Shown in pieces: positions 12,848-52,052 of a DNA stretch of 64,000 nt. Below the pieces are notes generated by a model that saw nothing but the letters and a program-made list of their open reading frames with translations, did not search any database and was not told the origin of the DNA. The translations under genes were made by a program, and so were the position numbers. Origin of the DNA: Halobacteriales archaeon QS_4_66_20 (GTDB lineage: Archaea > Halobacteriota > Halobacteria > Halobacteriales > Haloarculaceae); NCBI GenBank assembly GCA_003021015.1, contig PXRK01000017.1, forward strand, positions 1 through 64,000, given 5' to 3'. The stretch's first letter is position 1. The number at the start of each line of letters is the position of its first letter.

Positions 12848-12964
12848 GGGGGGCAGTTGCGAACGCGGGCAGTTGAGGCTGTCGGCGAGGAGTGTGAGAC
12901 TGTCAGCGGTACGTTTGCGGCAGTCGACGGTGGGTACTTGTAGCGCGGCGTCCGATTGGGAGGT

Positions 12965-26988: not shown

Positions 26989-27037
26989 GGGTTCTGTATT
27001 GTCGATGTCATGGTCGCTCTGGTGACGTTTGCATTGG

Positions 27038-29590
27038 CTACCTGATGATCTTGTCCCGCCCCGGATCGAACAGCGGTTCGTCCCGGATCGTCGCGTCGTA
27101 GCGCTGGCCCTCACACTGCACGGTGACCGACGTGCCCGCCTCGGCGTACTCATCAGGGACGTACGTGTAGGCGATGGACTCGCCGAGGGTGTAGCCGTAG
27201 TTGCCCGCCTGGACGTACCCGATCGCCTCGCCGTCCTTCATCACCGGGCGGCCGCTGAGCATGATGTCCGTCGAATCGTCGAGGGTGAGGGGCGTGATGC
27301 GGTTGTCGATGCCGGCCTCGCGGGCCTGCGCGAGCGCCTCCTTGCCGACGAAGTCGGTGTCCATGTCGACAGCGAACGGCAGCCCCGCCTCGAAGGGGTT
27401 GGAGTCCGTGTCGATGTCGGTGCCCCACAGCCGGTAGCCTTTCTCGAGGCGCATCGAACTCAGGGCGCCGCCGCCCATCGGCCGGACGTCGAGATCCTGG
27501 CCGGCCTCCCACAGCGTCTCCCAGAGCCGCTGGCCGTACTCGACGGGCGCCCACAGCTCCCAGCCGAGTTCGCCCACGTAGGAGACCCGCAGCGCGAGCA
27601 CCGGCACCTCGCCGACGTACATCTGTTTCGCGCGGAAGTAGGGGAACCCGCTGTTGGTCACATCGGCATCGGTACACCGCTGGAGCAGCAGCCGCGATTT
27701 CGGCCCCCACAGCCCGATCGTCGACCTGCCGCCCTCCTGGATCTGCACCGACACGGTGTCGGGGGCGTGCTCCGCGAGCCAGCCGCCGTGGATCCCGGGG
27801 GAGTTGCCGCCGCCGGTCGTAACCACGTACTCCTCCTCGTCGAGTTTGACGACGGTCACGTCCGCGAGGATGGTGCCGCCCTCGTTGAGCAGCAGCGAGT
27901 ACCGGACCTGCCCGACGTCGATGTCGATATCGTTCGAACACATCCGCTGGAGGAAGGCACGGGCGCCGTCGCCGGAGACCTCGATCGAGGAGAACGTCGT
28001 CATGTCGAACATCGAGACGTGCTCGCGGGTGTGGAGGTGCTCGGCCCCCTCGATCGGCGAGCGGTTGATCGCCTGCCAGCCGTCCTGCTCGGGGATCTGG
28101 TCCTCGTAGCGCTCCAGGAGGTCCGCGTTGTGCTCGTAGTACTGCGGCGACTCCCAGCCGCCGGACTGGTAGAACTCCGCCCCCAGTTCCTGCTGCTGGT
28201 GGTAGAACGGGCTGGTGCGCAGGCCGCGGTGATCGTCGGGCTGCCAGCGCGGGTCGACGACCATGTACACCTGCTCGTACCGGGTCGCGCCGCGATCGAC
28301 GAAGTACTCTTTCTCGCCGGCGTGTGGTTCGAACCGCCGGACGTGGATGCCGCCGGTGTCGACCGGTCCGGAGGGGAGCCGCGGGACGCCGTTCTCCATC
28401 CACTCGGCGAGGATCCGGCCGTAGCCGCCCGAGTGCGTCCACCAGATCGCCAGCGCGCTCCAGAGGCCGTCGACGGCGGCCGTCGGCCCGACCGCGGGCA
28501 TGCCGTCCGGCGTGAACACGAAGATGCCGTTTTCGGTCGCCTCGTAGGACGCGTCGGCGCTGGCCGGCAGCAGTTCGTCGAACGCCTGCTTTGCCGATTT
28601 GTCGCGGTGGCGGTGGGTCGGCTCCGTCCAGTGTTCCTCGGTGAACCCGCGCACCGAAGCCTGCCGGTCCTCGCTGTTTGTGCCCATCTCCTCGGGGTCG
28701 ACCGACAGCGTCTCGTGGTTGTACGACCCCATCCCGAGCGCGTCGCCGTGCGTGCGGAAGTACAGCGAGTGGTCCTGGTCGCGGCCGACCGGCCGGGTCG
28801 GCCCCTGGCTCATGTACTCCTGGATCGAACGGTCGCCCGGTACGTCCAGGCCGGTCGTGTGCTCGCCGACCGAACTGTCGAACTCCGACAGCTCCGGCAG
28901 GGGTTCGGTGACGACGTACTGGTGTTCGACCGGCGCGATGGGGAGGTCCAGCCCCGCGAGCTGGCCGGTCTGGTACCCCCAGTTGTTCGTCGCCATCACG
29001 CACCGGTCGCACTCGATGCGGCCGCGGTCGGTGACGGCGGCCCGGATCTCGCCGCCCGCCACCTCCAGGTCCTCGACGGTGGTGTTGCCGTAGAAGGCGG
29101 CGTCGCTGTGCTCTATGTACCACTGCAGGGCGCCGATCCCGTCGACGCGGCCGTCGGTCGGCGAGTAGTACCCGCCCAGGATCTCCTCCTCGTTCACCAT
29201 CGGGAGGGACTCGGTCACCTCGGCCGGCGAGAGGAGTTGCGGGTCCGGCAGACCGTAGGAGGTCGCCCACTCCTCGCGCCGGCGCAGGAACGCCATGCGC
29301 CGCTCGCTGCGGGCCACCTCGATGCCGCCGACCTCGTCGTAGACGCCCGCGTCGGCGAACAGCCTGCTCGTGTAGTGCGCTGTCTTCGTCTGGAGCTTCG
29401 ACGGCGACGTCTGGAACATGATGCCCGGCGCGTGTACCGACGAGCCGCCGGTCACCGGGAGCGGTCCCTGGTCGATGACCGCCACGTCCTCGGCGCCGAG
29501 TTCCGTCAGATGATACGCGACGCTGCACCCGACCGCGCCGGCGCCGATGACCAGAGTCTGTACCTGTGATGGGGGGTCTGTGCTGCTCAT
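27038..29590 (-). CDS. Dimethylglycine/sarcosine dehydrogenase-like FAD-GcvT protein 1
   Basis: An 850-residue protein with an N-terminal FAD-dependent DAO domain (Rossmann motif GAGAVG at 16-21, and SSVHAPGIMF with His53 at the position that carries covalent FAD in dimethylglycine dehydrogenase) and a C-terminal GcvT-type aminomethyltransferase domain from about residue 430 (MFDMTTFSSIEVSGDGARAF ... VGELGWELWAPVEYG ... FVGKEAL). Such enzymes demethylate dimethylglycine or sarcosine and pass the carbon to tetrahydrofolate as 5,10-methylene. Which of the two substrates is used cannot be read from the sequence. A TATA-like box at 29621-29627 suggests its own promoter. Confidence 0.85.
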   Translation of the reverse strand: MSSTDPPSQVQTLVIGAGAVGCSVAYHLTELGAEDVAVIDQGPLPVTGGSSVHAPGIMFQTSPSKLQTKTAHYTSRLFADAGVYDEVGGIEVARSERRMAFLRRREEWATSYGLPDPQLLSPAEVTESLPMVNEEEILGGYYSPTDGRVDGIGALQWYIEHSDAAFYGNTTVEDLEVAGGEIRAAVTDRGRIECDRCVMATNNWGYQTGQLAGLDLPIAPVEHQYVVTEPLPELSEFDSSVGEHTTGLDVPGDRSIQEYMSQGPTRPVGRDQDHSLYFRTHGDALGMGSYNHETLSVDPEEMGTNSEDRQASVRGFTEEHWTEPTHRHRDKSAKQAFDELLPASADASYEATENGIFVFTPDGMPAVGPTAAVDGLWSALAIWWTHSGGYGRILAEWMENGVPRLPSGPVDTGGIHVRRFEPHAGEKEYFVDRGATRYEQVYMVVDPRWQPDDHRGLRTSPFYHQQQELGAEFYQSGGWESPQYYEHNADLLERYEDQIPEQDGWQAINRSPIEGAEHLHTREHVSMFDMTTFSSIEVSGDGARAFLQRMCSNDIDIDVGQVRYSLLLNEGGTILADVTVVKLDEEEYVVTTGGGNSPGIHGGWLAEHAPDTVSVQIQEGGRSTIGLWGPKSRLLLQRCTDADVTNSGFPYFRAKQMYVGEVPVLALRVSYVGELGWELWAPVEYGQRLWETLWEAGQDLDVRPMGGGALSSMRLEKGYRLWGTDIDTDSNPFEAGLPFAVDMDTDFVGKEALAQAREAGIDNRITPLTLDDSTDIMLSGRPVMKDGEAIGYVQAGNYGYTLGESIAYTYVPDEYAEAGTSVTVQCEGQRYDATIRDEPLFDPGRDKIIR

Positions 29591-29620
29591 GTCGTTCGGT
29601 AGATGGTCTTCTGTCACAAT

Positions 29621-29627
29621 CATAAAG
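29621..29627 (-). promoter_or_regulatory. TATA box of FAD-GcvT gene 1
   Basis: Minus-strand ACTTTATG lies about 33 bases upstream of ATG 29590. It indicates that this gene is transcribed separately from its upstream paralogue, from which it is separated by 245 bases (29591-29835) with no other feature seen. Confidence 0.4.
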
Positions 29628-29835: not shown

Positions 29836-32415
29836 TCAGTCGACCAGCGGTTCCTCGCGAACCGTCGCAGCGTAGCGGTCGCCCTCGTAAAGGATCTCCA
29901 GGTCGGTGCCGGGGTCGGCGTACTCCGGCGGGACGTACGTGTAGGCGACGCAGGCGCCGACGGTGTACCCGTACTCGGCGCTGTGGACGTAGCCGAGCGC
30001 CTCGTCCTCGCCGGGCGCGAACACGGGGCGGTTGTCGAGGATCGTCTCCTCCTCGTCGTCCAGCGTCAGGCAGGCGATCTTGTGGTCGATGTTGTCGCCG
30101 TCGGCCGCCGCGGCCACCGCCTCCTTGCCGACGAAGTCGGTCTCCAGGTCGACTGCCCAGCCCAGGTCCGTCTCGTAAGGGTTGTGTTCGGTGTGGAGGT
30201 CCTCGCCCCACAGGCGGAACCCTTTCTCGATACGGAGGGCGTCCAGCGCGCCGTTGCCGTACGGCCGGATGTCGTACTCCTTGCCGGCGGCGAGCACGTG
30301 CTCCCAGAGGCGTTCGCCGTACTCCGAGGGCGTGTACAGCTCCCAGCCGAGTTCGCCCGCATACGAGACTCGCAGCGCCCGGACGGGGACGTTCTTGACG
30401 AACGTCTCCTCGCTCGTGTAGAACGGGAACGCCTCGTCCGAGAGGTCGGTGTCCATCACTTTCGAGAGCACCTTGCGGGCGTCCGGGCCCGTACAGACCA
30501 TCGCCGCGAGGCTGGAGGTGACGTCGTTGACGACGACGCCCTCCGGCGCGCGGTCGCGGATCCACGCGACGTGGTTGTTCCCGACCTCGCGGCCGGTCGT
30601 CAACACGAGGTAGCGGTCCGCGTCGGTCCGCGTGACTGTCACGTCCGCGCGGACGCCCCCGCCCTCGTTGCACATGAGCGTGTAGGTGATGTCGTCGACG
30701 TCCAGATCGATGTCGTTCGTACAGAGAGACTGGAGGTACTCGCCGGCGTCGGCGCCGATCACCTCGATCTTGTTGAACGACGTCATGTCGTGGAGCCCGA
30801 CGTGCTCGCGGACGTGGAGGGCTTCGGCCCCCTCGATCGGCGACCAGTACGTGCCCTCCCAGCCGTGGCGGTCCGGGATCCGGTCCTCGTAGCGCTCGAG
30901 GAGGTCCTCGTTGGACTCGAACCACTGTGGCTCCTCCCAGCCGGCTTCGGCCCACAGTTCGGCGTCGTACTCCTGGTGGGAGTGGTACATCGGCGTCCGC
31001 CGGATGTCGCGCTGGTGCTCGGTCCACACCCACTTTGGGTGCATCACGTTGTACACGATGCGGTACTCCTCGCCGCCGATGTCGCGGGCGAACTCCCAAC
31101 TGCCCTCGTGCTCGTCGAAGCGGTTGACGTTACACCGCGAGAGGTCGATCGGCCCGTCGGGCAGCCGCGGCACGCCGTTCTCCATCCATTCGGCGAGCGC
31201 CTTGCCGGCGCCGCCGGCGTGAGTGACCCAGATCGCCGCCGCGGTCCAGAGCCCCTCGTACTGCTGGACAGGGCCCAGCACCGGCAGGCCGTTCGGCGAC
31301 TCGGCGAACATCCCGTTGTACTTGAACTCCAGGTCCTTGCCGGCCGTCGCGGGCAGGAGTTCGTCGCTGGCCTGGCGGGCGGACTTGTGTGGGCGGTCGG
31401 GGTGCGTCGGGTTGTTCATGTGGTAGTCGGTGAATTCCCGGACGGAGCCCTGTTCGCCCTCGGGGTCGTTGCCGCCGAGCTCCTGGGGATCGGGGACGAT
31501 CGGCTCGTGGTTGTACGACCCGATCCCGTAGGAGTCCCCGTGGGTCCGGTAGTACATCGCGTTGTCCTGGTCCCGGAGGATCGGCCGGTCTGGTCCCAGG
31601 AGCAGCCGCTTGGCCTTCTCGCCGGAGACGTTTTCGTAGTTCTCGAACAGCGGGTGATCGGTGACGTCGACGCCGCTTTTGGACAGCTCCTCCAGCGGCT
31701 CCGTCATCGTGTACTGGTGTTCGACCGGCGTCACCGGCAGGTGGACACCGATCCGCTCGCCGAGCTGGCGCGCCCAGATGTTCGTCGCGATGACGACCTC
31801 GTCGCACTCGATGGTGCCGTTCTCTGTCACGACACCCTGGACCGCGCCGTCCGCGACGTGGACGTCCTCGGTGCGGGTGTGCGGAACGAACTCCGCGCCG
31901 CGCTCCATCGCCTCGCGGGCGAGCGCGTCGCAGGCGATGACGCCCGACACCTGGCCGTCGGTCGGCGAGTAGTACCCGCCCAGGATCTCCTCTTCGTCCA
32001 CCAGCGGCAGGTGGTCGGTCACCTCGTCCGAGCTGAGCAGCTGGGGGTCCTCGATCCCCCAGGCGTGGCCCCACTCGACGCGACGCTGGAGAAACGCCAT
32101 TCGCTCCTCGCTGCGCGCGACCTCGATGCCGCCCGTCTCGTTGTACGCCTGCTGGCCGTCGGCGCCCTCCAGCCGGGAGTACAGCTGTCGGCTGTAGTTG
32201 GCGAACTGCGTGAGTTCCTTCGGCTCGGCAGTCTGGAACATGATCCCCGGCGCGTGCGTCGAGGAGCCGCCGGTCGTCGGCATCGGCCCCTGGTCGACGA
32301 CGACAACGTCCTCGCGACCGAGCTGCGTCAGCTGGTATGCGACGTTGCAGCCGACGATCCCGGCCCCGACGACCACTGTGCCTGCCTCCTCGGGCAGGCG
32401 CTCTGTCGTTTGCAT
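29836..32415 (-). CDS. Dimethylglycine/sarcosine dehydrogenase-like FAD-GcvT protein 2
   Basis: An 859-residue paralogue of the next gene on this strand, with the same two parts: DAO domain with GAGIVG at 17-22 and STHAPGIMF containing His54, and a GcvT domain from about 445 (LHDMTSFNKIEVIGADAGEY ... YAGELGWELYTPSEYGERLW ... FVGKEAVAAA). Together the two would allow consecutive demethylations (dimethylglycine to sarcosine to glycine) with capture of both carbons on tetrahydrofolate; this division is inference. ATG 32415 is preferred to an upstream start at 32463 because an AT-rich promoter (32446-32456) lies between them. Confidence 0.85.
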   Translation of the reverse strand: MQTTERLPEEAGTVVVGAGIVGCNVAYQLTQLGREDVVVVDQGPMPTTGGSSTHAPGIMFQTAEPKELTQFANYSRQLYSRLEGADGQQAYNETGGIEVARSEERMAFLQRRVEWGHAWGIEDPQLLSSDEVTDHLPLVDEEEILGGYYSPTDGQVSGVIACDALAREAMERGAEFVPHTRTEDVHVADGAVQGVVTENGTIECDEVVIATNIWARQLGERIGVHLPVTPVEHQYTMTEPLEELSKSGVDVTDHPLFENYENVSGEKAKRLLLGPDRPILRDQDNAMYYRTHGDSYGIGSYNHEPIVPDPQELGGNDPEGEQGSVREFTDYHMNNPTHPDRPHKSARQASDELLPATAGKDLEFKYNGMFAESPNGLPVLGPVQQYEGLWTAAAIWVTHAGGAGKALAEWMENGVPRLPDGPIDLSRCNVNRFDEHEGSWEFARDIGGEEYRIVYNVMHPKWVWTEHQRDIRRTPMYHSHQEYDAELWAEAGWEEPQWFESNEDLLERYEDRIPDRHGWEGTYWSPIEGAEALHVREHVGLHDMTSFNKIEVIGADAGEYLQSLCTNDIDLDVDDITYTLMCNEGGGVRADVTVTRTDADRYLVLTTGREVGNNHVAWIRDRAPEGVVVNDVTSSLAAMVCTGPDARKVLSKVMDTDLSDEAFPFYTSEETFVKNVPVRALRVSYAGELGWELYTPSEYGERLWEHVLAAGKEYDIRPYGNGALDALRIEKGFRLWGEDLHTEHNPYETDLGWAVDLETDFVGKEAVAAAADGDNIDHKIACLTLDDEEETILDNRPVFAPGEDEALGYVHSAEYGYTVGACVAYTYVPPEYADPGTDLEILYEGDRYAATVREEPLVD

Positions 32416-32445
32416 AATTCTGGTCGAAACGTCACGCTGGCGCGC

Positions 32446-32456
32446 AAATATAGTTA
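32446..32456 (-). promoter_or_regulatory. TATA box of FAD-GcvT gene 2
   Basis: Minus-strand TAACTATATTT lies 31-41 bases before ATG 32415 in otherwise GC-rich DNA. Confidence 0.5.
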
Positions 32457-32573
32457 TCGCCACCCCAACCCGTTTTCAACGTATCAGCGACGGACGAAGT
32501 AGAGGTATCGGAACGGCGTCCGGGCTGGCCCGCCCCCGATGGATCCTTTATCCGCTGGGCACCAATGGGGAGT

Positions 32574-33521
32574 ATGAGTCACGAGCGGGTCGCGCACACG
32601 GCCACGGAGCGGACACTGGGGCGGCTCCCGTCGGGGGCCGACGTCGCCGTCACCGTCCACCGGTACGAGGGCGGCGACGGGCCGACCGTGTACGTCCAGG
32701 CCGCACAGCACGGAATCGAACTCAACGGCCCGGCGACGCTCCGGCGGTTGCACGAGGCGTTGCTGGACGCGGAACTGGCGGGCACCGTCGTCGCGGTGCC
32801 GCTGGCGAACCGGCCGGCGTTCGATCACCGCTCGTACGGCGCCCCGCCGGAGTTCGACGCCGTGAACCCGAACATGAACCGGGTCTGGCCCGGCGACGAG
32901 GACGGCACCTTCCAGGAGCGGCTCGCGGCCGAGCTGTGGGAGCTCGTCTCGGCTGCCGACGTGATCGTCGACCTGCACACCGGGACCGCGGACATGCTCG
33001 AACACGTCAGAGTGACCGGGGGCGACCCGGAGGCGCGCGGGCTCGCGGAGGTGTTTGGCACGGAGTTTCTGCTCGTCGACGACCCCGATGACACCCCCGG
33101 CGGGAAGCTCCGGACGGCCGCAGCCGACGCCGACATCCCCGCGGTCGCGGTCGAACTCGCGAACAGCCGGCAGGTAAGCCACGACGCCGTCGACGCGGGC
33201 GTCCGGGGCGTCCGGAACCTGCTGCGGGAACTCGGCGTCCTCGCGGGGCGTCCCGATCCGCCGCCGGAGCAGACAGTGCTCCGGGACGACGCCGAGCGGA
33301 CGGCGGCCCAGGCCTCGGGGCTGTTCGAGTTGCGGCCGGACGTCGGAGTCGGTGAGTACCTCGAGGCCGGGAGCGAACTCGGAACGATCTACTGCCCGTC
33401 GTCGTTCGAGCGGCTTCAGACTGTCACCGTCGCGGACAGCGGCGTCGCGTACTCGCTGACCCGCGAAGGCGTAATGGTCGCAGGGGAACGACTCGCCGCT
33501 GTCGGCCGGCGCGTCGAGTGA
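32574..33521 (+). CDS. Succinylglutamate desuccinylase/aspartoacylase-family zinc hydrolase
   Basis: A 315-residue M14-like deacylase. The zinc site is visible as His46 and Glu49 in AAQHGIELNG and the His of VDLHTGTADM; a catalytic Glu candidate is in VAVELANSRQ. Family members cut N-acyl amino acids or ectoine-type compounds; substrate here is unknown. It is divergent from FAD-GcvT gene 2. An ATG at 32565 (three residues longer) is possible. The stop TGA (33519-33521) lies inside the left end of a fam1 element, so the present C terminus may be set by that insertion. Confidence 0.8.
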   Translation: MSHERVAHTATERTLGRLPSGADVAVTVHRYEGGDGPTVYVQAAQHGIELNGPATLRRLHEALLDAELAGTVVAVPLANRPAFDHRSYGAPPEFDAVNPNMNRVWPGDEDGTFQERLAAELWELVSAADVIVDLHTGTADMLEHVRVTGGDPEARGLAEVFGTEFLLVDDPDDTPGGKLRTAAADADIPAVAVELANSRQVSHDAVDAGVRGVRNLLRELGVLAGRPDPPPEQTVLRDDAERTAAQASGLFELRPDVGVGEYLEAGSELGTIYCPSSFERLQTVTVADSGVAYSLTREGVMVAGERLAAVGRRVE

Positions 33522-33615: not shown

Positions 33616-33765
33616 ACTGTCGGACGTGACTCTGTGGACTGCCAAGACACGCAAACCGGTGTATTCACCCTCGCTGCTCGAACCGATTCGGGGCGTTCGT
33701 ACTGGGGCTGACTTCAATGGGTTATCTGTTCCACATATACGACTATGAACAACAGTGTGTCATAT

Positions 33766-34797
33766 ATGCACCAGGTTATGGGAGTGAGAAACACATTCGA
33801 TGTCCTTTCGGACATTACCGAACACTACGAGTCTCACGGGGCGTGCGTGCGCAACGTCGAGGCAGTGTCGGGTGAGGCGAGTGGTGGTGTCCTTCGGGCC
33901 AGCCTCGAACTGGTGGTATCGCTCTGCTCGGCGACGGCCGAGGAGACAGCTGTAACGCCGACGGACGCGAGGTTCACGGCCGAGGGCGGGTTCCAGGTCG
34001 AACTCGACCCGTCGGAACTGCTCTCGCTCCCCGCGAAAGACGGCGTCACAGTCCAGAGCGAGGAGTCCCTCGGGGTGACGGAAGACGGCATGCTGGTCGT
34101 CGAGGTCGACCTCGCGGTCCGTCCCCCCGACGGGGAGACGGAAGGCAGCATCGTCGACGTACAGCCAGCCCCACGCCACAGAGCCACGCGGGGAGCGATC
34201 GACAGGGCCGGAACGGCCGGAGGCGACGGACACGAGGGGGACCCGCTCGCGGCTGCCCGCGACGAGTCGGTTCCTCCCTACGAGGACACCCCGTACCTCG
34301 AACGGCTCTACGGGACCTGCGAGACGTTCGAGGAGATGAGCCGGGAGATCGAGATGGACGTCTCCGCCGAGACCGTCCGGCGGTACATGATCGAGGCCGA
34401 AATCCACGAGCCGGAGTCATACGAGACCCGCCAGCGGGGCCGGGCCGACGACGATCAAGAGGTCGACACAACCGACCCGTCCCCGGCGTCGACTGACGAC
34501 CCGCTGGAGACGATCCCCGACGAGCAGCTGATCACGGACGGCATCGGGCTGCCAGCGGAGGTCACGATCACGGACATCGGCGACGCGGTCGTCGGTTCGC
34601 GCAGCGCCCACGAGGTGACGCAGAAGCTCGATCTGACCGAGGAACAGACCCGGGAGCTGCTACGGCAGCTGAACCTGCTGGACCTGGTGTTACACCGCGT
34701 CGGGGACGAGCCCCGGAAGACGCCGACGTACCACACCGTCGCCACGCGGATCCGCCAGTGTACGCCCGAGACGGTGGAACCGACCGGTGGTATATAA
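33766..34797 (+). CDS. Haloarchaeal HTH regulator, function unknown
   Basis: A 343-residue acidic protein that I recognise only as a haloarchaeal DNA-binding regulator. Residues about 10-120 form a beta-rich N-terminal domain (FDVLSDITEHYESHGACVRN); a middle HTH lies near ERLYGTCETFEEMSREIEMD / SAETVRRYMIEAEIHEPES; a second predicted helical domain follows near LPAEVTITDIGDAVVGSRSA with KLDLTEEQTRELLRQLNLLD. ATG 33766 is chosen because ACATATAC at 33733-33740 would serve as TATA box for a leaderless start there; ATG 33745 is the alternative. It ends 58 bases before the MetF-like gene, whose promoter overlaps its stop, so it may regulate that gene. Confidence 0.6.
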   Translation: MHQVMGVRNTFDVLSDITEHYESHGACVRNVEAVSGEASGGVLRASLELVVSLCSATAEETAVTPTDARFTAEGGFQVELDPSELLSLPAKDGVTVQSEESLGVTEDGMLVVEVDLAVRPPDGETEGSIVDVQPAPRHRATRGAIDRAGTAGGDGHEGDPLAAARDESVPPYEDTPYLERLYGTCETFEEMSREIEMDVSAETVRRYMIEAEIHEPESYETRQRGRADDDQEVDTTDPSPASTDDPLETIPDEQLITDGIGLPAEVTITDIGDAVVGSRSAHEVTQKLDLTEEQTRELLRQLNLLDLVLHRVGDEPRKTPTYHTVATRIRQCTPETVEPTGGI

Positions 34798-34855: not shown

Positions 34856-35710
34856 ATGGCACAACAGAGTTTCTCGCGATCGGACGGGGCGGACGCGCTG
34901 CTTCGCGACGCCCGGTTCGAGCTGATGCCGTTCGACAGTTTCGACGACGAACTGACGTACCTGCCCGATGGGGCGACGATCGCGATCACGACCTCCCCGC
35001 AGCTCGGGATCGAGCGGACGGTCGAGCGGTCCGAACAGGCGGCCGCGGACGGGTACGAACCCGTGCCCCACATCGCCGCGCGGTACGTGCGCGATGGGGA
35101 CCACCTCGAGGAGATCGCCCGCCGGCTCACCGAGGCGGGCGTCACCGAGATCTTCGTCCCGGGCGGCGACCGCGAGGAGCCAGTCGGCGAGTTCGAATCT
35201 GCCTACCAGCTGCTCGTGGCGCTCGACGAGACGGAGTACAGCTTCGAGGAGGTCGGGATTACCGGGTACCCCGAGGGACACGAGTTCCTCGACGAACAGA
35301 CGCTCCGGACCGAGATGGACAAGAAAGCCCCCTACGCCACGTTCATCGTCACGCAGCTCTGTTACGATCCCGAGGCAGTGATCGAGTGGATCGAGAAGAT
35401 CAGGGGTCGCGGCGTCGACCTCCCCGTCGAAGTGGGGATTCCGGGCGTCATGAAGTACAGCCGCCTGCTGCAGATCTCCCGGAAGGTCGGCGTCGGTGAC
35501 TCCGTCAAGTTCCTCAGGAAGACGACCGGTGTGGTCGATTTCGTCCGCCAGATCGTCGGCTCACGGGGAACGTACAAGCCCGACGAACTGGTCGACGGCC
35601 TCGGCCCGTACGCTGACGACGAGGAGTACAGGATCAGCGGGATCCACATCTATACGTTCAACCAGACCAAGGACACGGAAGACTGGCGGCGCGGACGACT
35701 CCAGGGCTAA
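34856..35710 (+). CDS. Methylenetetrahydrofolate reductase family protein (MetF-like)
   Basis: A 284-residue TIM-barrel protein of the 5,10-methylenetetrahydrofolate reductase family: FELMPFDSFDDEL near the start, PVPHIAARYV in the FAD-binding region, FVPGGDREEP, GITGYPEGH, and ATFIVTQLCYDPEAV with the expected Gln-Leu. Normal members reduce methylene-H4F to methyl-H4F using FAD. In a window rich in demethylases and folate enzymes it could run in the oxidative direction, turning methyl-H4F from an O- or S-demethylase into methylene-H4F (inference). A fam1 element is inserted exactly after the stop codon. Confidence 0.85.
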   Translation: MAQQSFSRSDGADALLRDARFELMPFDSFDDELTYLPDGATIAITTSPQLGIERTVERSEQAAADGYEPVPHIAARYVRDGDHLEEIARRLTEAGVTEIFVPGGDREEPVGEFESAYQLLVALDETEYSFEEVGITGYPEGHEFLDEQTLRTEMDKKAPYATFIVTQLCYDPEAVIEWIEKIRGRGVDLPVEVGIPGVMKYSRLLQISRKVGVGDSVKFLRKTTGVVDFVRQIVGSRGTYKPDELVDGLGPYADDEEYRISGIHIYTFNQTKDTEDWRRGRLQG

Positions 35711-35932: not shown

Positions 35933-36367
35933 ATGGCAACAACAGACACGAACACGGCAGACCTCGTCCGGCGCTATCTGCGAGCGTTCAGCGACAGGGA
36001 CGAGGAGACACTCAGGGAACTGCTCGCCGATGACGTGGTCGAACACGGGGTTCACGAGGAACTCCACGGACCCGACGAGGTCGTCGCCTTCCTGGAATCG
36101 TACTTCGAGACGTTCCCGGACTACGAGGGCAGCACCGAGGCGATGATCGCCGAGGGCGACACGGTCGCCGTCCGGTACTCTGCCCGCGGGACCCAGAGCG
36201 CCGAACTCCAGGACGTCGAGCCGACGGGCCAGGCGGTCGAGTGGACCGGGATGGCGATGTACCGGGTCGAGAACGGACAGATCGCCGAGGTGTGGGTCGA
36301 GGAGAACCGCCTCAAGATGCTCGAACAGCTACAGGCCGTCGACCCACCGGCCCATCTTCGGATCTGA
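35933..36367 (+). CDS. SnoaL-like / ester cyclase family protein
   Basis: A 144-residue NTF2-fold protein of the SnoaL polyketide-cyclase-like group: VRRYLRAFSDRDEETLRELL at the N terminus, FLESYFETFPDYEGSTEAMI and GDTVAVRYSARGT in the middle, and EWTGMAMYRVENGQIAEVWVEEN. These proteins are binding or isomerase-type domains of varied function; no substrate can be assigned. It stands between two fam1 elements, one ending 142 bases upstream and another starting immediately after its stop. Confidence 0.8.
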   Translation: MATTDTNTADLVRRYLRAFSDRDEETLRELLADDVVEHGVHEELHGPDEVVAFLESYFETFPDYEGSTEAMIAEGDTVAVRYSARGTQSAELQDVEPTGQAVEWTGMAMYRVENGQIAEVWVEENRLKMLEQLQAVDPPAHLRI

Positions 36368-36545: not shown

Positions 36546-37928
36546 TCAGTCGTCGTGTTCGTTGGCTTCGGCCTCGCGTTTGGCGCCGAGCTTGGCCTGC
36601 TCGCGTGCGCTGGGGTTGACAGACTCCTTGAACGGCACCTTCGCGGTCGTCGCGAACACCGGTTCCCCCGGCTCCTCGGCGTACTCGTCGGGCAGGTGGA
36701 CCCGGAACTCCAGGTCGAGGTCCGCGTCGTAGATCTCGTCGTTCAGCGGCACGTCGGTCTCCTCCTGGAGCATGTCGGCCGGCACGAACCCCATCCCGAT
36801 GTTCGTGTCCAGGTCGGGGTTGTACCACGGCGAGGTCAGGTAGCCGACCTCCTCGCCGGTGTCGGGGTCCGAGATCAGCCAGAAGTCCGGGGCGTAGTCC
36901 CGGATCGGTTCGCCGGCGATCTTCAGCCCGATCAGCTTGTGGTTGAACGGGTACTCGCCGTTCTCGATCAGTTCCTGCTGGCGTTCGAGCGCCTCCTTGC
37001 CGATGTAGTCGGCGTCCTTGTCGTCGGGCACCTGGTAGCCGAGGTTGACCTGGAACGGCGAGGTCTCGTGGTCGAGGTCCTGCCCCCAGGACATGATGCC
37101 GGCGGCGATCCGGCGGTGGTGGCCGGGCGCGATCTGCATCCCGCCGTGTTCGACGACGCTCTCGTGGACCGGGTCCCAGACCCGCTCGGCGTTCTCCATG
37201 GCGTTTTTGACGTAGATCTCGAAGCCCTTCTCCCCGGAGAAGCCGGTCTGGCTGATCAGCACCTCGCAGCCGTCGATCTCGGACTCCATCAGCCCGTAGT
37301 AGGGAATCTCGCTGACCTCCTCGCCGACGACGTCGATCATGACGTCCTCCGAGAGCGGCCCCTGGATCTGCATCGGCGCAACATCGATCTCGTCGATCTC
37401 GACGTCGAAGTCCATGCCGACGTTGACGCCCTGCAGCCACTGCATCAGCGTGGAGTCCGAGATCGAGAACCAGAACTCGTCCTCCTCCGGCCGCAGCAGC
37501 ACCGGGTCGTTCAGCACGCCGCCGTCCTCGTTGCAGAGGATGACGTACTTCCCGTCCATCGCGTCCATCGTGCTCACGTCGCGGGTGACGACGTAGTTGG
37601 TGAGCGCCTCGGCGTCGGGACCTTTCACGCGGATCTGGCGCTCGACTGCCACGTCCCAGATGGTGACGCTGTTGGTCAGTGCCTCGTACTCTGCCATCGC
37701 GCCGCCGTCTTCCGGTTCGACGAGCCCCCGCGGGTGGTAGAGCCGGTTGTACACCGTGCACCGCCAGGCGCCGTTCTCGCCGAAGGACTTGTGGAAGAAC
37801 GGCGATTTGCGCACGCGCGTCGAAACCAGCATCTCGATGCCTGGATCGCCGGTCTGCCGGAGATTTCTCGGGACGATACGGTCGGACTGATCCACACTGG
37901 GGTAGTTCGGGTGGTCGCTATCTGACAT
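36546..37928 (-). CDS. GcvT-family aminomethyltransferase/demethylase (LigM/DmdA-like)
   Basis: A 460-residue stand-alone GcvT-fold protein, longer than glycine-cleavage GcvT (about 365) and near the length of LigM/DesA O-demethylases. Conserved features: IWDVAVERQIRVKGPDAEAL, CNEDGGVLNDPVLLR, ISQTGFSGEKGFEIYVK, and ADYIGKEALERQ. It should transfer a methyl or aminomethyl group from a substrate to tetrahydrofolate. Candidates are a methoxy-aromatic, a methylated sulfonio- or amino-compound; no glycine-cleavage partner genes are present. A TATA box at 37954-37962 gives a leaderless start at ATG 37928. It is followed by no gene on its strand for over 4 kb, hence monocistronic. Confidence 0.78.
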   Translation of the reverse strand: MSDSDHPNYPSVDQSDRIVPRNLRQTGDPGIEMLVSTRVRKSPFFHKSFGENGAWRCTVYNRLYHPRGLVEPEDGGAMAEYEALTNSVTIWDVAVERQIRVKGPDAEALTNYVVTRDVSTMDAMDGKYVILCNEDGGVLNDPVLLRPEEDEFWFSISDSTLMQWLQGVNVGMDFDVEIDEIDVAPMQIQGPLSEDVMIDVVGEEVSEIPYYGLMESEIDGCEVLISQTGFSGEKGFEIYVKNAMENAERVWDPVHESVVEHGGMQIAPGHHRRIAAGIMSWGQDLDHETSPFQVNLGYQVPDDKDADYIGKEALERQQELIENGEYPFNHKLIGLKIAGEPIRDYAPDFWLISDPDTGEEVGYLTSPWYNPDLDTNIGMGFVPADMLQEETDVPLNDEIYDADLDLEFRVHLPDEYAEEPGEPVFATTAKVPFKESVNPSAREQAKLGAKREAEANEHDD

Positions 37929-38089: not shown

Positions 38090-38749
38090 TTACTGCTCGG
38101 GGGTGTCCTCGGCGATCGTCGTGGCGATCAGGTTCCGGATCCCGCGGCGCAGACGGCCGCTCATCGCCGTCGAGGAGAGGTCCATCTCCTCGGCGATCTC
38201 CTCGAGGGAGGTCTCCCGCGGTTCGAAGAAGTACCCCATCTCGTGGGCGGCCTGCAGCGCGGTCCGCTGTTCGTCGGTCAGGCCGTAGGACTCCGCGCCG
38301 ACGGCGTACTCGTTGGCGTACACGTCCATGATCTCGAAGGAGATGTCCTCCTCGCTGGTGTACTCCCAGATGGCGTTGAGCGCCGATCGCTCGGGCAAGA
38401 GCAGCCGCACCAGCCAGCCCCCGTCCGTGGTCTCGGACTCGACCAGGAACCCGTTGACCTCCGTCACGACAGTGCTGATGAGCTTCGTCTCCGGGGTGTG
38501 TTCGACGTAGTAGATCCCCTGCTGGTCGGCCCAGTCGACGAGTTCGTACGCCTCGACCGTCGGGTCGGAATCGAGCACCCGCTCCAGCTCCCGGCGGTCG
38601 GTGTACTCGAACAGAAACGGGAAGTGCGACACCTCCGGATCCGTGTTGACCTGGGTGATCACCCGGACGTTCACCCCCTGGAGGGACTGGACGGTCGGGA
38701 TCAACGCGAGATGGTCGTGCTGGATGTGAACCGTGGCTGTAATCGACAT
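38090..38749 (-). CDS. Bacterio-opsin activator (HTH_10) family regulator
   Basis: A 219-residue regulator with the haloarchaeal layout: an N-terminal ligand-sensing beta domain (residues about 1-150) and a C-terminal HTH_10 domain (LTDEQRTALQAAHEMGYFFE then SLEEIAEEMDLSSTAMSGRL). It lies between the GcvT-like demethylase and folD on the same strand and is a reasonable candidate to control C1-metabolism genes, though that is only positional inference. The 161-base gap to the demethylase holds that gene's promoter. Confidence 0.85.
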   Translation of the reverse strand: MSITATVHIQHDHLALIPTVQSLQGVNVRVITQVNTDPEVSHFPFLFEYTDRRELERVLDSDPTVEAYELVDWADQQGIYYVEHTPETKLISTVVTEVNGFLVESETTDGGWLVRLLLPERSALNAIWEYTSEEDISFEIMDVYANEYAVGAESYGLTDEQRTALQAAHEMGYFFEPRETSLEEIAEEMDLSSTAMSGRLRRGIRNLIATTIAEDTPEQ

Positions 38750-38898: not shown

Positions 38899-39792
38899 CT
38901 ACGGCAGATCGACGTCGACGCCGGACTGAAGACTCGCCGCTTTGACGGTGTTGTACGTGAGCATCGCGATTGTCAGCGGCCCGACGCCGCCGGGAACGGG
39001 GGTGATGGCGCTGGCTTTCTCCTTCGCGCTCTCGAACTCGACATCGCCGACGAGTTCGTACCCTTTCTCGGTGTCGGCCTCAACGCGGTTGACGCCGACA
39101 TCGATCACGACCACGCCGTCGGAGAGCATCGACCCGTCGATCATCTCCGGGACGCCCGCGGCCGCGATCACGATGTCGGCGTCGCGCGTCTTCTCCGCGA
39201 GGTTCTCGGTCCGCGAGTGACAGACAGTCGTCGTCGCGTTGCCGCCCTCGCCGTACTGGACCAGGAGGTTCGCCATCGGCTTGCCGACGATGTCCGAGCG
39301 CCCGACGACCACCGCGTCTTTGCCTTCCGTCTCGATCCCCTCGGCGGCCAGGATCTTCTGGATCCCGTGGGGGGTACAGGGTTTGTACCGGGCGTGGCCC
39401 GCGACCATCCGGCCGACGTTCTCGGGATGGAACGCGTCGACGTCCTTCAGCGGGTCGATCCGTTCGAGTACTGTGCGTTTCTCGACGTGGTCGGGCACCG
39501 GCATCTGGACGAGGATCCCGTGCACCGACGGGTCCTCATTCAGTTCGTCGATGCGCTCGAACAGCACCTCGGCCGGCGCCGACGGGTCGATCTCGTCGTG
39601 GATGTTCTCGATCCCCATCTCCGCGCAGGCGCGGTGTTTCATCGAGACGTACGTCTCGCTGGCGTCGTCGTCGCTCATCAGGACCGTCGCCAGCCCGGGT
39701 CTGGTGCCCGCCGCCACGAGGTCGTCCACGCAGTCTGTCAGGTCGGCTCTGATCCGGTCTGCGATCGCGTTCCCGTCGATTATCGTAGTCAT
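38899..39792 (-). CDS. folD: Bifunctional methylenetetrahydrofolate dehydrogenase/cyclohydrolase FolD
   Basis: A 297-residue FolD of normal length. Catalytic Lys52 with Tyr48 lies in ETYVSMKHRA; the substrate motifs HGILVQMPVP and CTPHGI and the dinucleotide motif VVVGRSDIVGKPMA are all present. It oxidises methylene-H4F to methenyl-H4F and hydrolyses this to 10-formyl-H4F, in the cytoplasm, normally with NADP. It forms the centre of the C1 route encoded around it, linking the FAD-GcvT enzymes to formate-tetrahydrofolate ligase. Confidence 0.95.
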   Translation of the reverse strand: MTTIIDGNAIADRIRADLTDCVDDLVAAGTRPGLATVLMSDDDASETYVSMKHRACAEMGIENIHDEIDPSAPAEVLFERIDELNEDPSVHGILVQMPVPDHVEKRTVLERIDPLKDVDAFHPENVGRMVAGHARYKPCTPHGIQKILAAEGIETEGKDAVVVGRSDIVGKPMANLLVQYGEGGNATTTVCHSRTENLAEKTRDADIVIAAAGVPEMIDGSMLSDGVVVIDVGVNRVEADTEKGYELVGDVEFESAKEKASAITPVPGGVGPLTIAMLTYNTVKAASLQSGVDVDLP

Positions 39793-40016: not shown

Positions 40017-40069
40017 ATGTAAAGCAGCAACCGGAGGCACGTTTGCCGGACCTCCGGGACCGAGAGACA

Positions 40070-41572
40070 ATGAGTCAGGTACGCATCGTGACCGACCGAG
40101 CGGCGTTCGTCGAGACCGCGGCGTCGGCCCCGGCCGGGGCACGCGTCCCGGTCGAGGCCCGAATCTCCGTCGCGGACCCGTTCGAGGCCTACCGCCGCGC
40201 ACGGGACCGCGACTGCGAGGGGTTCTACCTCGAAACCACCGGCGGCCAGAACGGCTGGGGGTACTTCGGCGTGGAGCCCGTCGAACTCCTGACCGTCCAG
40301 GAGGAGGCGACAGGAATCGACGATGGGAGCCCGAGCATCGCGGCGATCGACTCGCTACTGGCGCGCGAGAGGCTGGTCCGGGGAGGCTGTGAGGTGCCGT
40401 ACCCCTGTGGCGCGTTCGGGTGGCTCTCCTACGACGTCGCCAGGGAGCTCGAAGAGATCCCGGAAACGACGTACTCCGAGGGCCTCCCGCGGGTCCAGCT
40501 CGGCGTGTTCGACACCGTCGCCGCCTGGCAGGAACCCCGCGAGGGCGAGGTCGACCTCCACGTCACGGCCTGCCCGGTCGTCGGGGACTCGCCCGCGGCC
40601 ACCTACGAGGAGGCGACGGACGCGGTAACGTCGCTGGCCACGGCGGCCGTCAACGGGGAGACAGGCGTGCAGTCGCGGCCGACTGCAGTCCAGCAGGCAA
40701 CGTTCGAGAGCGAGTGCGGGAAGGCGGCGTTCACCGACCGCGTCCGGACGATCAAGCAGTACGTCAGGGACGGGGACACGTTCCAGACCAACGTCTCCCA
40801 CCGGCTGGTCGCGCCGGCGTCGGTCCACCCGGTCAAGACCTTCGACGCGCTGCGCCAGGTGAACCCGGCGCCGTACTCCGGGTTGGTCGAGTTCCCGGGC
40901 GTCGATCTGGTCAGCGCCAGCCCGGAACTGCTGCTGGAGGTCGACGGCGACCGCCTCCTCACGGAGCCGATTGCGGGGACGCGACCCCGTGGAGAGACGC
41001 CGGCCGAGGACGCGGACCTGGAGCGTGATCTCACGGCCGACGAGAAGGAGCGCGCCGAGCACGCGATGCTGGTCGACCTCGAGCGCAACGACCTCGGGAA
41101 GGTCTGTGCGTACGGGACCGTCGACGTGACTGAATATCGGCGCGTCGACCGCTACTCGGAGGTGATGCACCTCGTCTCCCTGATCGAGGGCCAGTTGCGC
41201 GACGACGCCGGCATCGCGGACGCGGTGGCAGCCGTCTTCCCCGGCGGGACGATCACCGGTGCGCCCAAGCCCCGCACGATGGAGATCATCGACGAGGTGG
41301 AACTGACCCGGCGGGGGCCCTACACCGGTAGCATGGGCGTATTCGGCTTCGACGGCCGGGCGACGCTCAACATCACGATCCGGACGCTAGTCCACCACCA
41401 GGGGGAGTACCGCCTCCGCGTCGGGAGCGGCATCGTCCACGACTCCGACCCGGAACGGGAGTACCAGGAGACGCTGGACAAAGCCCGCGCCCTCGTGACC
41501 GCTGTCGACGAGGCGCTCGGGGAGGGCGGTTCGTTCGCGATCGAGACCGGGACCGCGGAGGGCGTCCGATGA
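40070..41572 (+). CDS. trpE: Anthranilate synthase component I (TrpE; PabB possible)
   Basis: A 500-residue chorismate-binding enzyme. The C-terminal catalytic half has [48 protein letters not shown] and [20 protein letters not shown]. The motif [11 protein letters not shown] has Ala where aminodeoxychorismate synthases usually have Lys (PIKGT), which favours anthranilate synthase (established distinction). No other trp gene follows, and folate genes are abundant in the window, so a PabB role is the alternative. It overlaps the glutaminase gene by 4 bases. ATG 40070 is preferred to an in-frame TTG/GTG further upstream. Confidence 0.82.
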
Positions 41573-42141
41573 TCCTTATCGTCGACAACTACGACTCCTT
41601 CGCGTACAACCTCGTCCAGTACGTCGGCGAGTTCGCGCCGGTCAAGGTCCGCCGCAACGACGCGATCGACGTCGAGGGGATCTGCGAGCTACACCCCGAC
41701 GGGATCGTCGTCTCGCCGGGTCCTGGAACGCCACAGGAGGCTGGCGTCTCCATCGACGTGTTCGCCGAGACCGACTACCCCGCGCTGGGCGTCTGTCTGG
41801 GCCACCAGGCGCTATGTGCGGCCCACGGGGCGGCGGTCGGGCACGCCCCGGACGTGGTCCACGGCAAGCCATCGGAGATTACCCACGACGGCAACGGTCT
41901 GTACGAGGGCGTCGCCAACCCCTTCGAGGTCGGGCGGTACCACTCGCTGGCCGTCGAGCGCGAGGATCTGCCCGAGGAGTTGATCGAGACGGCCTACACC
42001 ACCGACGAGCAGGGCGTCGTGATGGGTGTCCGACACGTCGACAGCCCACAGATCGGGGTCCAGTTCCACCCCGAGAGCATCCTCACGGACGCGGGCAAGC
42101 GGATCGTCGAGAACTTCTGTACTTCGGTCGCAGGCAGTTGA
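41569..42141 (+). CDS. trpG: Anthranilate synthase component II, glutamine amidotransferase (TrpG/PabA)
   Basis: A 190-residue class I glutaminase. The nucleophile Cys is in GVCLGHQAL, the catalytic His and Glu in VQFHPESIL, and the N terminus [20 protein letters not shown] is canonical. It supplies ammonia to the preceding component I; the ATGA overlap suggests tightly coupled translation. As with its partner, service to para-aminobenzoate synthesis is possible because many amidotransferases of this family are shared. Confidence 0.9.
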
Positions 42142-42191: not shown

Positions 42192-44048
42192 TCAGTCCTC
42201 GTCGGGCGGGTCGAGGTCGTGGTGGGTCTGGATCGTCGGCAGTCGGTCGCGGGCGCGGCCGACCAGCGACTGGTGGCCGCGTTCGTTGCGGTACAGCGTC
42301 AGCGTGAGCGCGCCGAGCGAGACCAGCGTGAGCACCGCGAACGGGCCGCCGGTCAGGACGGAAATCGCCTGCAGTGTCTCGGAGCCGCCGACGATCAGCA
42401 CGGAGACAGCGACGGCGCCCTGGAACACGCCCCAGAAGACGATGCTGCCGGTCGACGGGGCGAGACCGCGGCGCGTCGAGAGGAACGCGACGACGAGCGT
42501 CGACGTGTCGGCGGAGGTGGCCATGAACACTACGATCAGCGACAGGAAAAGGAAGGTGAGCAGCTCGGTCAGCGGGAGCGCCCCGAACAGGGGGTAGCCC
42601 GCCACAGCTTCCGAGCTGGCGTAGTCAGCGATCACGGCGAGGATGTCCGCCTCCCCGGAGTGCTGGACGAACAGCGACGTCCCGCCCAGCAGGAGAAACC
42701 AGACCATCGACGCGGCCGAGGTGGCGACGACGCTGGTCAGCACGACGGTCCTGATCCGCCGGCCCCGCGAGACCGCGGCGATAAACAGGCCGGCGAAGGG
42801 CGCCCAGGAGAACCACCACGACCAGTTCCAGACCGTCCAGTCGGCGACCCACTGCCCCCCGGCGTACAGGCTCATCGGGACGAAGTTCACGGCGTAGCTC
42901 CCGACCGCGCTGGTGGCGCGCTCAAGCACGAACGAGCGCGGGCCGATCCCGACCAGGATCAGCGCGAAGAGGCCGAACAGCACGACGTTGAGCGCGGCGA
43001 TGCGGCGGATCCCCCGGTGGATGCCCGACGCCGCCGAGAGCACGAAGATGATCGTGAGCCCGCCGACGAACAGCACCGGGCCGACCTCGCCCGAGGAGAC
43101 GCCCCACTTGGACGCGATCCCGGTGAGGAACTGCTCGCTCACCAGCGCGATGGACGTCGCGATCCCGCCGATGGTCGCGAACACGGCGAGCGTGTCCACC
43201 AGCCTGCTCCAGACCGAATCCAGCCCGTCGACGCCGAGAAACGGGGTCAGGATCGTCGACACCCGCAGCGGCGCGCCGCGCTTGAACACGAAGTACGCAA
43301 TGGGAACGCCGATCACGGTATACGCGCTCCAGGCAGAGAACCCCCAGTGAAACAGCACGTACGTCAGCGCCCCGTCGATCGCCGCCCCCGACTCCGGCGC
43401 CGCGTCGAAGTACGGCGGCGGCGTCTGGTAGTGAGTCAGCGCCTCGGCCGGCCCCCAGAACACGATCCCGGCCGCGATGCCGGCGGTGAAGATCAGCGTG
43501 AAGTACATCGGGTAGGTGTAGCTCGGCTCGGTGTCCGGGCTGCCGAGTTTGACCTCCCCCCAGGGACCGACGAGCAAGAACAGACAGTAGAGGACCGCCA
43601 GGAAGACGGCACCGAGAAACACCGGGCCACCTTCGGTCAGGATCCCCTGTGAAGCCTCGTCGACCGTCTCCGTCACGCTCGCAGGGAAGGCGATCTGTAG
43701 GAGCAGAAACAGGGCGAACACGACGACCGGCACCAGCAGGACGATCGGGTCCTGCCTCGTCACGAACTCCCGGACGACGTCGACGAGCTTCGTCCGTCTG
43801 ATCCGGAGCAGCGCCAGCTCGCCGGACTGCCTGTCGGCGTCCGGGTCGTACGGCAGGACTGCCAGATACCCCAGGCCCGAACTGAAAAACAGGAGCGAGA
43901 CGGTCAGCCAGGACTGCCCCGAGACGGCGTTGCCGACGAATGCGGGGAAGAAAAACCCCGACAGAACGAGCGCGCCGGAGAGCACGCACAGCGGTAACAG
44001 CACCTTCGCGAGGACCTGCTCTGCGGCACTGATCCCGTCTGTCGTCAT
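42192..44048 (-). CDS. BCCT-family carrier 1 (betaine/carnitine/choline type), divergent
   Basis: A 618-residue membrane protein with about 12 membrane segments. The BCCT signature region reads DWTVWNWSWWFSWAPFAGLF, which departs from the canonical DWTxFYWAWWIAWSPFVG seen in the second BCCT of this window. Other family stretches: MYFTLIFTAGIAAGIVFWGP and FHWGFSAWSAYTVIGVPIAY. It likely imports betaine or a related quaternary amine by ion coupling, for osmoprotection or as substrate for the demethylases nearby. The N-terminal extension of about 130 residues contains extra hydrophobic segments. It is convergent with trpG, 50 bases apart. Confidence 0.85.
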   Translation of the reverse strand: MTTDGISAAEQVLAKVLLPLCVLSGALVLSGFFFPAFVGNAVSGQSWLTVSLLFFSSGLGYLAVLPYDPDADRQSGELALLRIRRTKLVDVVREFVTRQDPIVLLVPVVVFALFLLLQIAFPASVTETVDEASQGILTEGGPVFLGAVFLAVLYCLFLLVGPWGEVKLGSPDTEPSYTYPMYFTLIFTAGIAAGIVFWGPAEALTHYQTPPPYFDAAPESGAAIDGALTYVLFHWGFSAWSAYTVIGVPIAYFVFKRGAPLRVSTILTPFLGVDGLDSVWSRLVDTLAVFATIGGIATSIALVSEQFLTGIASKWGVSSGEVGPVLFVGGLTIIFVLSAASGIHRGIRRIAALNVVLFGLFALILVGIGPRSFVLERATSAVGSYAVNFVPMSLYAGGQWVADWTVWNWSWWFSWAPFAGLFIAAVSRGRRIRTVVLTSVVATSAASMVWFLLLGGTSLFVQHSGEADILAVIADYASSEAVAGYPLFGALPLTELLTFLFLSLIVVFMATSADTSTLVVAFLSTRRGLAPSTGSIVFWGVFQGAVAVSVLIVGGSETLQAISVLTGGPFAVLTLVSLGALTLTLYRNERGHQSLVGRARDRLPTIQTHHDLDPPDED

Positions 44049-47925: not shown

Positions 47926-48135
47926 CCTACGTGTACATCTCTCCCATCGCCTCATGAGGGTTCGTATATCTGACATGGGTCGGAAAGGATGTGGCCACCT
48001 CGGGTCCGGAGCCGCTGTGTGACACAACTGTTCATCTCGGTGAGTGATTGTGGTTCGCTCGGCCCGCGCTGTCCCCGGCTGTCGGGCGGGCAGGAGCCCG
48101 ATAGGTTAATCAGGAGCCCACCGGGGACATGTGAT

Positions 48136-52036: not shown

Positions 52037-52052
52037 AACGTCTATAGACGTT
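52037..52052 (+). promoter_or_regulatory. 16-base perfect palindrome upstream of BCCT carrier 2
   Basis: AACGTCTATAGACGTT is a perfect palindrome in an AT-rich 300-base intergenic stretch (51949-52257) that also contains several TATA-like sequences (CTTATAATTTTATATC near 52006-52021, ATTATAATTATC near 52100, GTTTATACC near 52121). It is a candidate operator for an osmotically or substrate-controlled carrier gene. No known regulator site is matched. Confidence 0.4.

Follow-up and report, generated by a model that had tools for sequence, protein, structure and literature searches.

Which methyl group would a haloarchaeon pass to tetrahydrofolate (THF) with a GcvT-like protein encoded beside a MetF-like reductase? 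The question is raised by the window, the 64,000-nt stretch of DNA from Halobacteriales archaeon QS_4_66_20 that was analysed. The focal open reading frame (36546-37928, minus strand, 460 codons with an ATG start) encodes 460 amino acids of acidic, haloarchaeal composition (D+E 20%, K+R 7%); mean column identity among 32 aligned sequences of its family is 85% and the closest named genome, the MAG SW_7_65_23, encodes a protein 98% identical to it. The initial annotation saw here a folate-dependent demethylase resembling LigM and DesA and feeding methyl-THF oxidation. The second part of this reading is supported by our analysis as a prediction, the resemblance to LigM and DesA is not. The window genes that concern the argument are:

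12956..14824, plus strand: MoeA-type molybdopterin biosynthesis protein (profile match)
14873..16141, plus strand: second MoeA-type protein (profile match)
17614..18216, plus strand: FchA-type methenyl-THF cyclohydrolase (116.9 bits, below the cut-off of 275)
18465..19958, plus strand: NuoF-like subunit of a formate dehydrogenase cluster (profile match)
19910..20863, plus strand: NuoG/HoxU-like iron-sulfur subunit (profile match)
20860..23169, plus strand: formate dehydrogenase alpha subunit (837 bits, above the cut-off of 666)
23761..25716, plus strand: second molybdopterin oxidoreductase, FdhA-like (below cut-off)
25726..27153, minus strand: serine/threonine dehydratase (ilvA_1Cterm, 442.9 bits, above cut-off)
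27038..29623, minus strand: second DMGDH-like flavoprotein with a GCV_T domain, 861 aa (profile matches)
29836..32463, minus strand: DMGDH-like flavoprotein with a GCV_T domain, 875 aa (profile matches)
32565..33521, plus strand: AstE/AspA-type deacylase near MetF (14 of 44 loci contain a relative)
33745..34797, plus strand: 350-aa protein without Pfam or NCBIfam match (26 of 44 loci have a relative close to the focal gene)
34856..35710, plus strand: MetF-like methylene-THF reductase, proposed direction towards methylene-THF (profile matches; accompanies the focal gene in all 69 genomes that have it)
35933..36367, plus strand: SnoaL-like protein (Pfam), located between the MetF and focal genes
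36546..37928, minus strand: focal gene, predicted DmdA-like folate-dependent methyltransferase, 460 aa (profiles, PDB match, tree)
38090..38749, minus strand: HTH_10 (Bat-type) regulator (32 of 44 distinct loci have a relative within 9 kb)
38899..39792, minus strand: FolD (549.1 bits, above cut-off)
40043..41572, plus strand: PabB-type aminodeoxychorismate synthase, folate synthesis (profile match)
41569..42141, plus strand: PabA/TrpG-type amidotransferase (profile match)
42192..44048, minus strand: BCCT transporter (glycine betaine uptake is the best model, with 373.3 bits and thus under the cut-off of 650)
45803..46183, plus strand: RidA/L-PSP family protein (profile match)
46198..48027, minus strand: formate-THF ligase (809.5 bits)
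52051..54066, plus strand: second BCCT transporter (glycine betaine uptake is again the best model, 507.4 bits and under 650; BCCT subfamily model above cut-off)

The end of the MetF-like gene lies 0.84 kb from the focal gene on the opposite strand, matching the distance of about 0.8 kb given earlier; both DMGDH-like genes, about 4 and 7 kb from the focal gene, were absent from the initial annotation. The family match of the serine/threonine dehydratase begins near residue 60, so its true start is probably internal. RidA deals with the enamines made by serine dehydratase. Neither gcvH nor gcvP was found among the scanned window genes, and a separate contig (C72) carries gcvT together with a frame that by eye looks gcvH-like. 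A search of the genome that the window comes from (89% complete), made with an internally deleted SHMT copy as query, gave no SHMT match. When window positions 35708-35832 are set beside 10037-11532 of the corresponding locus of the sister MAG SW_7_65_23 (L074), the latter is about 1.4 kb longer and holds an SHMT gene, which sits between MetF and SnoaL and is missing from the window; the MetF region differs by about 85 bp. At some loci two HTH_10 genes stand beside a relative of the 350-aa protein, which is possibly a regulator.

The family was assigned by profiles, structures and a tree. Pfam recognises in the focal protein GCV_T-type domains only (GCV_T with 142.8 bits, GCV_T_C with 28.0 bits; each exceeds its cut-off), the FAD oxidoreductase domain being absent. 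The DmdA model NF009133 ranks top in NCBIfam with 245.4 bits, below its cut-off of 410 and compared with 600.3 bits for a roseobacter DmdA, and the runners-up are GcvT models with at most 160.7 bits. DmdA (3tfh) is also the top PDB match with 154.9 bits for the single sequence, rising to 175.6 bits with a profile of the 32 family sequences. In a tree of 50 rows, rooted on one long YgfZ-like row and flagged by the program for long branches, including that of the haloarchaeal rows against their sister, the window protein falls inside a haloarchaeal branch (support 100/100), which joins DmdA and alphaproteobacterial DmdA-like proteins in a branch of 32 rows (100/100). This branch stands apart from the GcvT, DMGDH, TMAO-demethylase, Dmm-linked and YgfZ rows; within it the DmdA rows occupy a neighbouring bacterial branch and the haloarchaeal rows lie outside the DmdA branch proper. 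The TMAO demethylase (Tdm, NF053776) shares the GCV_T domain, but is much larger (763 model positions) and branches separately. Of the two placements that the initial annotation had named as contrary, the YgfZ clade did not receive the protein in the tree, and neither did a sarcosine oxidase clade, sarcosine oxidase being compared by profile only (101.7 of 1164 bits). By sequence, then, the family is a DmdA-type branch that fails DmdA's own cut-off and motif, and is not of the GcvT, LigM/DesA, sarcosine oxidase/DMGDH or YgfZ type. AlphaFold2, given 32 haloarchaeal sequences, produced a poor model (mean pLDDT 61.2, pTM 0.60); the underlying alignment omits the start Met, so that its numbering equals the residue numbers used here minus one.

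The residues of the presumed active site were compared among 48 rows of the haloarchaeal group haloA (some sequences entered twice), 7 rows of the second paralog haloB and the reference rows. Asn140-Asp141 occurs in all haloA, haloB and DmdA rows, the GcvT rows having Asp or Glu followed by Asp; E96 and R97 are as in most rows of the DmdA branch, and E237 and Y239 align with the conserved folate-site residues given in the accessible part of PMC7487153. Phe230 and Gly232-Glu233 are found in 48 of 48 haloA and 7 of 7 haloB rows. The latter pair matches the GcvT and DMGDH rows, whereas the three DmdA rows, Marivivens and Phaeobacter G2 have Lys-Gln; the position of Phe230 is Trp in SAR11 DmdA and Tyr in roseobacter DmdA, and Gln227 of the haloarchaeal rows is mostly Arg in other families. 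Taken together, these positions suggest a fold and a presumed THF side that are DmdA-like and a presumed substrate side that is altered. Hence the focal protein has in common with DmdA of Pelagibacter ubique the GCV_T fold, the best sequence match, the Asn-Asp-Pro segment, E96/R97 and the presumed methyl transfer to THF, and differs from it in score, branch, the substrate-side residues (Gln227, Phe230, Gly-Glu) and gene company. The accessible text of PMC7487153 calls halophile DmdA homologs "non-DmdA", with F171 where Trp is expected and a DMGDH-like tertiary structure, and gives no substrate; these are apparently the same proteins as the focal family, with Phe at the position that its authors call key for DMSP. 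We dropped Phe at this W171 position as sole proof against DMSP, since the roseobacter DmdA rows (L128, L129) carry Tyr there and the residue is no strict DMSP marker.

The distribution of the gene was analysed in 292 genomes of the class Halobacteria, scoring per genome the best 3 DMGDH, 5 DmdA-like, 6 Rieske and 8 MetF candidates at E limits of 1e-120, 1e-60, 1e-60 and 1e-40, respectively. DmdA-like genes were detected in 69 genomes, MetF-like in 72, DMGDH-like in 96 and Rieske in 48; formate-THF ligase scored above cut-off in 110, the matches in G206 and G233 falling below it and being excluded. The initial annotation had presented its substrate as new for haloarchaea, which holds for the function only, for the gene is widespread there (69/292) and already published as a DmdA homolog, as seen in the part of PMC7487153 at hand. 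All 69 genomes with the DmdA-like gene also carry the MetF-like gene (DmdA-like alone 0, MetF-like alone 3, neither 220), which supports the earlier prediction that a THF-dependent demethylase passes its methyl group to oxidation through this reductase. The DmdA-like gene is patchily distributed, being found in none of three genomes of the same genus (G018, G034, G046; 1e-60) and present in more distant genera, and was possibly mobile or lost.

A DMGDH-like gene accompanies the DmdA-like gene in 65 of the 69 genomes; the other four, without match at 1e-120, all carry MTTB. Among the 96 DMGDH genomes, 50 have the DmdA-like gene only, 29 a GbcA/CntA-like Rieske gene only, 15 both and 2 neither (Fisher p 3e-11 on genomes, counts not fully corrected for phylogeny); by majority state in 32 genera the corresponding figures are 19, 10, 2 and 1 (p 1e-5). 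The gene is thus exchanged in the genomes with a betaine demethylase of known type, the Rieske partner itself scoring below the cut-off of GbcA, its best NCBIfam model (132.4 bits), and having a carnitine monooxygenase as its best solved relative (148 bits). The two states differ in their folate genes: among DMGDH-bearing genomes MetF is present in 65/65 with the DmdA-like gene versus 1/29 with Rieske only, and formate-THF ligase in 64/65 versus 2/29. A Rieske demethylase frees formaldehyde and needs neither enzyme, whereas methyl-THF needs both, and it is this contrast that argues most strongly for a methyl-THF product.

Gene company was determined at 44 distinct loci with at least 7.5 kb of flank on both sides, after removal of 26 others (3 were duplicates, 17 had a short flank and 6 belonged to paralog B). 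Within 9 kb of the DmdA-like gene we found MetF at 35 loci, DMGDH at 23, BCCT at 16, SHMT at 12, FolD at 11, serine/threonine dehydratase at 10 and DHFR at 9; at least one of BCCT, DMGDH, dehydratase and SHMT was present at 38 loci and none of the four at 6. At 15 control gcvT loci none of these genes was seen, apart from a weak DMGDH match produced by gcvT itself. Of the 50 DmdA-only genomes, 46 have the gene within 30 kb of DMGDH (32 within 10 kb, 14 at 10-30 kb); one has it at a greater distance and three carry it on a different or unlisted contig. In Rieske-only genomes the Rieske gene is within 10 kb of DMGDH in 29/29. Plasmid pNG700 of Haloarcula marismortui unites both types in one row: DHFR, DmdA-like, MetF, a hypothetical protein, AstE-type, DMGDH, Rieske, a small protein, DMGDH, threonine ammonia-lyase, USP and BCCT. 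The orthologues of H. marismortui and Haloarcula hispanica are 85-86% identical, and the genome G126, whose gene coordinates agree with those of the H. hispanica plasmid record, has the DmdA-like gene and no Rieske match at 1e-60. An SHMT lacking the PLP-lysine segment (L035:7911-9056, the same sequence as L085) was considered as a novelty and rejected, being probably one damaged or misassembled copy; the segment was intact at 12 of 16 matched loci (two duplicate pairs among them), missing at one (L085) and unreadable at three.

These observations of family placement, gene company, co-occurrence and complementarity lead us to propose that the focal enzyme is most likely a DmdA-type glycine betaine:THF methyltransferase, free of corrinoid and an O2-free alternative to GbcA; we regard this identification as reasonably probable. 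Confidence is strong for methyl-THF as the predicted product and moderate for glycine betaine as the predicted substrate, where other betaines or DMSP are possible; catalysis and reaction direction are likewise predictions from sequence. In the proposed pathway, BCCT carriers would import glycine betaine and the focal enzyme would move one N-methyl group directly to THF, yielding dimethylglycine and 5-methyl-THF. The two DMGDH-like flavoproteins would then convert dimethylglycine to sarcosine and glycine while loading methylene-THF, and glycine would proceed through serine to pyruvate (by SHMT where present, then the dehydratase) or enter the glycine cleavage system. The MetF-like enzyme would oxidise methyl-THF to methylene-THF, from which FolD/FchA, formate-THF ligase and formate dehydrogenase would take the C1 unit to CO2. 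Together the window genes could carry betaine to pyruvate and CO2, and in other haloarchaea a GbcA/CntA-like Rieske oxygenase would replace the first step.

Several observations count against betaine. Fifteen genomes carry both the DmdA-like and the Rieske gene, both window BCCTs and the Rieske protein score below the cut-offs of betaine models, and some bacterial members of the joint clade (Marivivens) are encoded in DMSP-type operons. DmdA itself is highly specific for DMSP and close analogues according to the available part of PMC5395565. The four DmdA-like genomes without a DMGDH match, all with MTTB, and the missing SHMT match in the genome of the window likewise speak against betaine. 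Some accessions in the published group of halophile DmdA homologs we take to be those of Haloquadratum walsbyi. That group, in the accessible part of PMC7487153, appears to include sequences of this species, and PMC3102087, as far as its available text goes, relates negative betaine growth reports for H. walsbyi (no enhancement) and H. utahensis. The same text describes four haloarchaea in which dimethylglycine-oxidase-like genes lie close to those for BCCT transporters, and raises the possibility of betaine use.

The same chemistry might act on another quaternary amine imported by BCCT (a choline derivative, carnitine, proline betaine or a dimethyl- or trimethyl-amino acid), with the DMGDH-like enzymes taking the demethylated product. 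We hold this to be an unlikely but serious possibility. The MTTB family spans several quaternary amines and is present in 7 of the 54 genomes that have the DmdA-like gene without a Rieske match; the BCCT matches are to betaine, choline and carnitine carriers below the equivalog cut-off, and the nearest solved relative of the Rieske partner is the carnitine enzyme. On the other hand, GbcA is the best model of that same Rieske protein, the two DMGDH-like genes per locus fit the path from betaine to glycine, and the dehydratase (10/44 loci) and SHMT (12/44) point to glycine as an end product. A sulfonium substrate, the protein being an archaeal DMSP demethylase that works like DmdA, appears more doubtful still. 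DmdA is the nearest known family, the Marivivens relative lies within a dmdB/C/D-type operon, and DMSP import via BCCT carriers is described in a 2026 abstract (PMC13270143); yet the score reaches 245.4 of 410 bits outside the DmdA branch, Gly-Glu stands for Lys-Gln after the aromatic residue and Gln for Arg227, no dmdB/C/D-type genes were found among the scanned window genes, and the complementarity with a betaine-type Rieske enzyme would be left unexplained. DmdA itself is highly specific for DMSP and close analogues according to the available part of PMC5395565.

It is improbable that the protein is no demethylase at all but an aminomethyl- or folate-handling GcvT-like partner of the DMGDH-like proteins, acting on methylene-THF. 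The GCV_T fold and the Gly-Glu-x-Gly-aromatic-Glu motif, which is GcvT/DMGDH-like, would suit such a role; against it, DMGDH occurs without the focal enzyme in the Rieske-only genomes (29/96), the link with MetF, an enzyme of methyl-THF, is total, and the tree as well as Asn140, where GcvT has Asp or Glu, places the protein with DmdA. An O-demethylase for methoxy-aromatics of the LigM/DesA type, the resemblance proposed by the initial annotation, is scarcely credible. The length is similar and weak matches exist (LigM 36.5 bits, DesA 47.9 bits; cut-offs of 580 for NF047885 and 800 for NF047633), but in these comparisons by profile score DmdA matches far better (245.4 bits; in PDB 175.6 bits versus 30.1 for LigM structures), and no aromatic-degradation genes were found among the scanned neighbours. 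We therefore rejected this reading and consider the shared length coincidental.

Returning to a betaine:THF methyltransferase, we asked which other betaine routes the same genomes encode. The accessible text of PMC12478193 names GbcAB, Bhmt and MtgB as routes of betaine demethylation. The BHMT family was found in 0 of the 54 DmdA-like genomes without a Rieske match (positive in 9 of 14 control genomes) and MTTB (PF06253) in 7, so that 47 of the 54 show none of the three routes named there. With slightly more confidence than doubt, we propose that haloarchaea use a fourth route, in which a single enzyme of the DmdA branch, corrinoid-free and oxygen-independent, would transfer a methyl group directly from a quaternary ammonium to THF, exchangeable with a Rieske monooxygenase. 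It would share with MtgB/MttB the net transfer of a betaine methyl group to THF, but these need a corrinoid protein and a second methyltransferase, belong to PF06253 and are absent in 47/54 genomes. With GbcA/CntA it would share the step or substrate class and the DMGDH-linked loci, differing in that those are unrelated Rieske oxygenases that use O2, free formaldehyde and have no MetF link here. In five of the seven MTTB genomes (G024, G108, G138, G071, G106) a distance of 16-28 kb separates MTTB from the DmdA-like gene, which hints at larger methyl-donor islands, and in the four DMGDH-less genomes MTTB could itself take betaine. In two genomes of 2.1-2.2 Mb (G057, G062; loci L130, L131) the DmdA-like gene stands alone, DMGDH is absent at 1e-120, and MTTB, MetF-like and formate-THF ligase genes are clustered elsewhere; if these are sulfur-respiring anaerobes, a guess based on their size and on the name of L114, they may stop at dimethylglycine. 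Among open-licence literature, covered by titles and abstract starts, no paper assigned betaine demethylation in haloarchaea to a GcvT/DmdA-type protein.

Related genes occur in other settings. The second haloarchaeal paralog, haloB, is 64-69% identical (L048, L049, L134-L137, L167; e.g. L136:8913-10280) and is often neighboured by an HTH regulator, twice by an MFS-type transporter, and usually by neither MetF nor DMGDH; genes for TusA, DsrE-like and YeeE proteins lie near one copy (L167), and the haloB substrate may differ. On Phaeobacter and Loktanella plasmids (L121, L122, L127) a DmdA-like gene is grouped with genes for an Lrp regulator, OsmC, enoyl-CoA hydratase and acyl-CoA synthetase; the set resembles a DMSP pathway that lacks a canonical DmdA. 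A Lichenihabitans plasmid (L124:7660-12227) combines a DmdA-like gene with metF, purU and folD and with genes for ABC transporters and an FAD oxidoreductase, and so offers a bacterial counterpart to the methyl-THF oxidation genes of haloarchaea. In SAR11, the available text of PMC3160333 postulates a DMSP role for the DmdA-like SAR11_1265 beside metF and a betaine role for the gcvT-like SAR11_1303 near betaine ABC transporter genes; by this description both resemble the focal locus in gene context, but they are bacterial, and for betaine SAR11 possesses BHMT.

Among the osmolytes of saline waters, glycine betaine is a major one. Its demethylation mechanism had stayed elusive even in marine bacteria, as stated in the accessible part of PMC12478193. 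If our reading is true, the DmdA branch would hold N-methyl chemistry beside the S-methyl chemistry of marine DmdA, and betaine breakdown by such an enzyme without oxygen or vitamin B12 would be undescribed. With a methyltransferase acting directly between betaine and THF, the methyl group would stay on folate and not be lost as formaldehyde, and the reaction would run in brines without oxygen or B12. It would explain the unassigned "aminomethyltransferase" genes in about a quarter of the sampled haloarchaeal genomes, and would give the DmdA-like genes beside metF in bacteria such as Lichenihabitans and SAR11 (SAR11_1265, in the text available of PMC3160333) a testable substrate.
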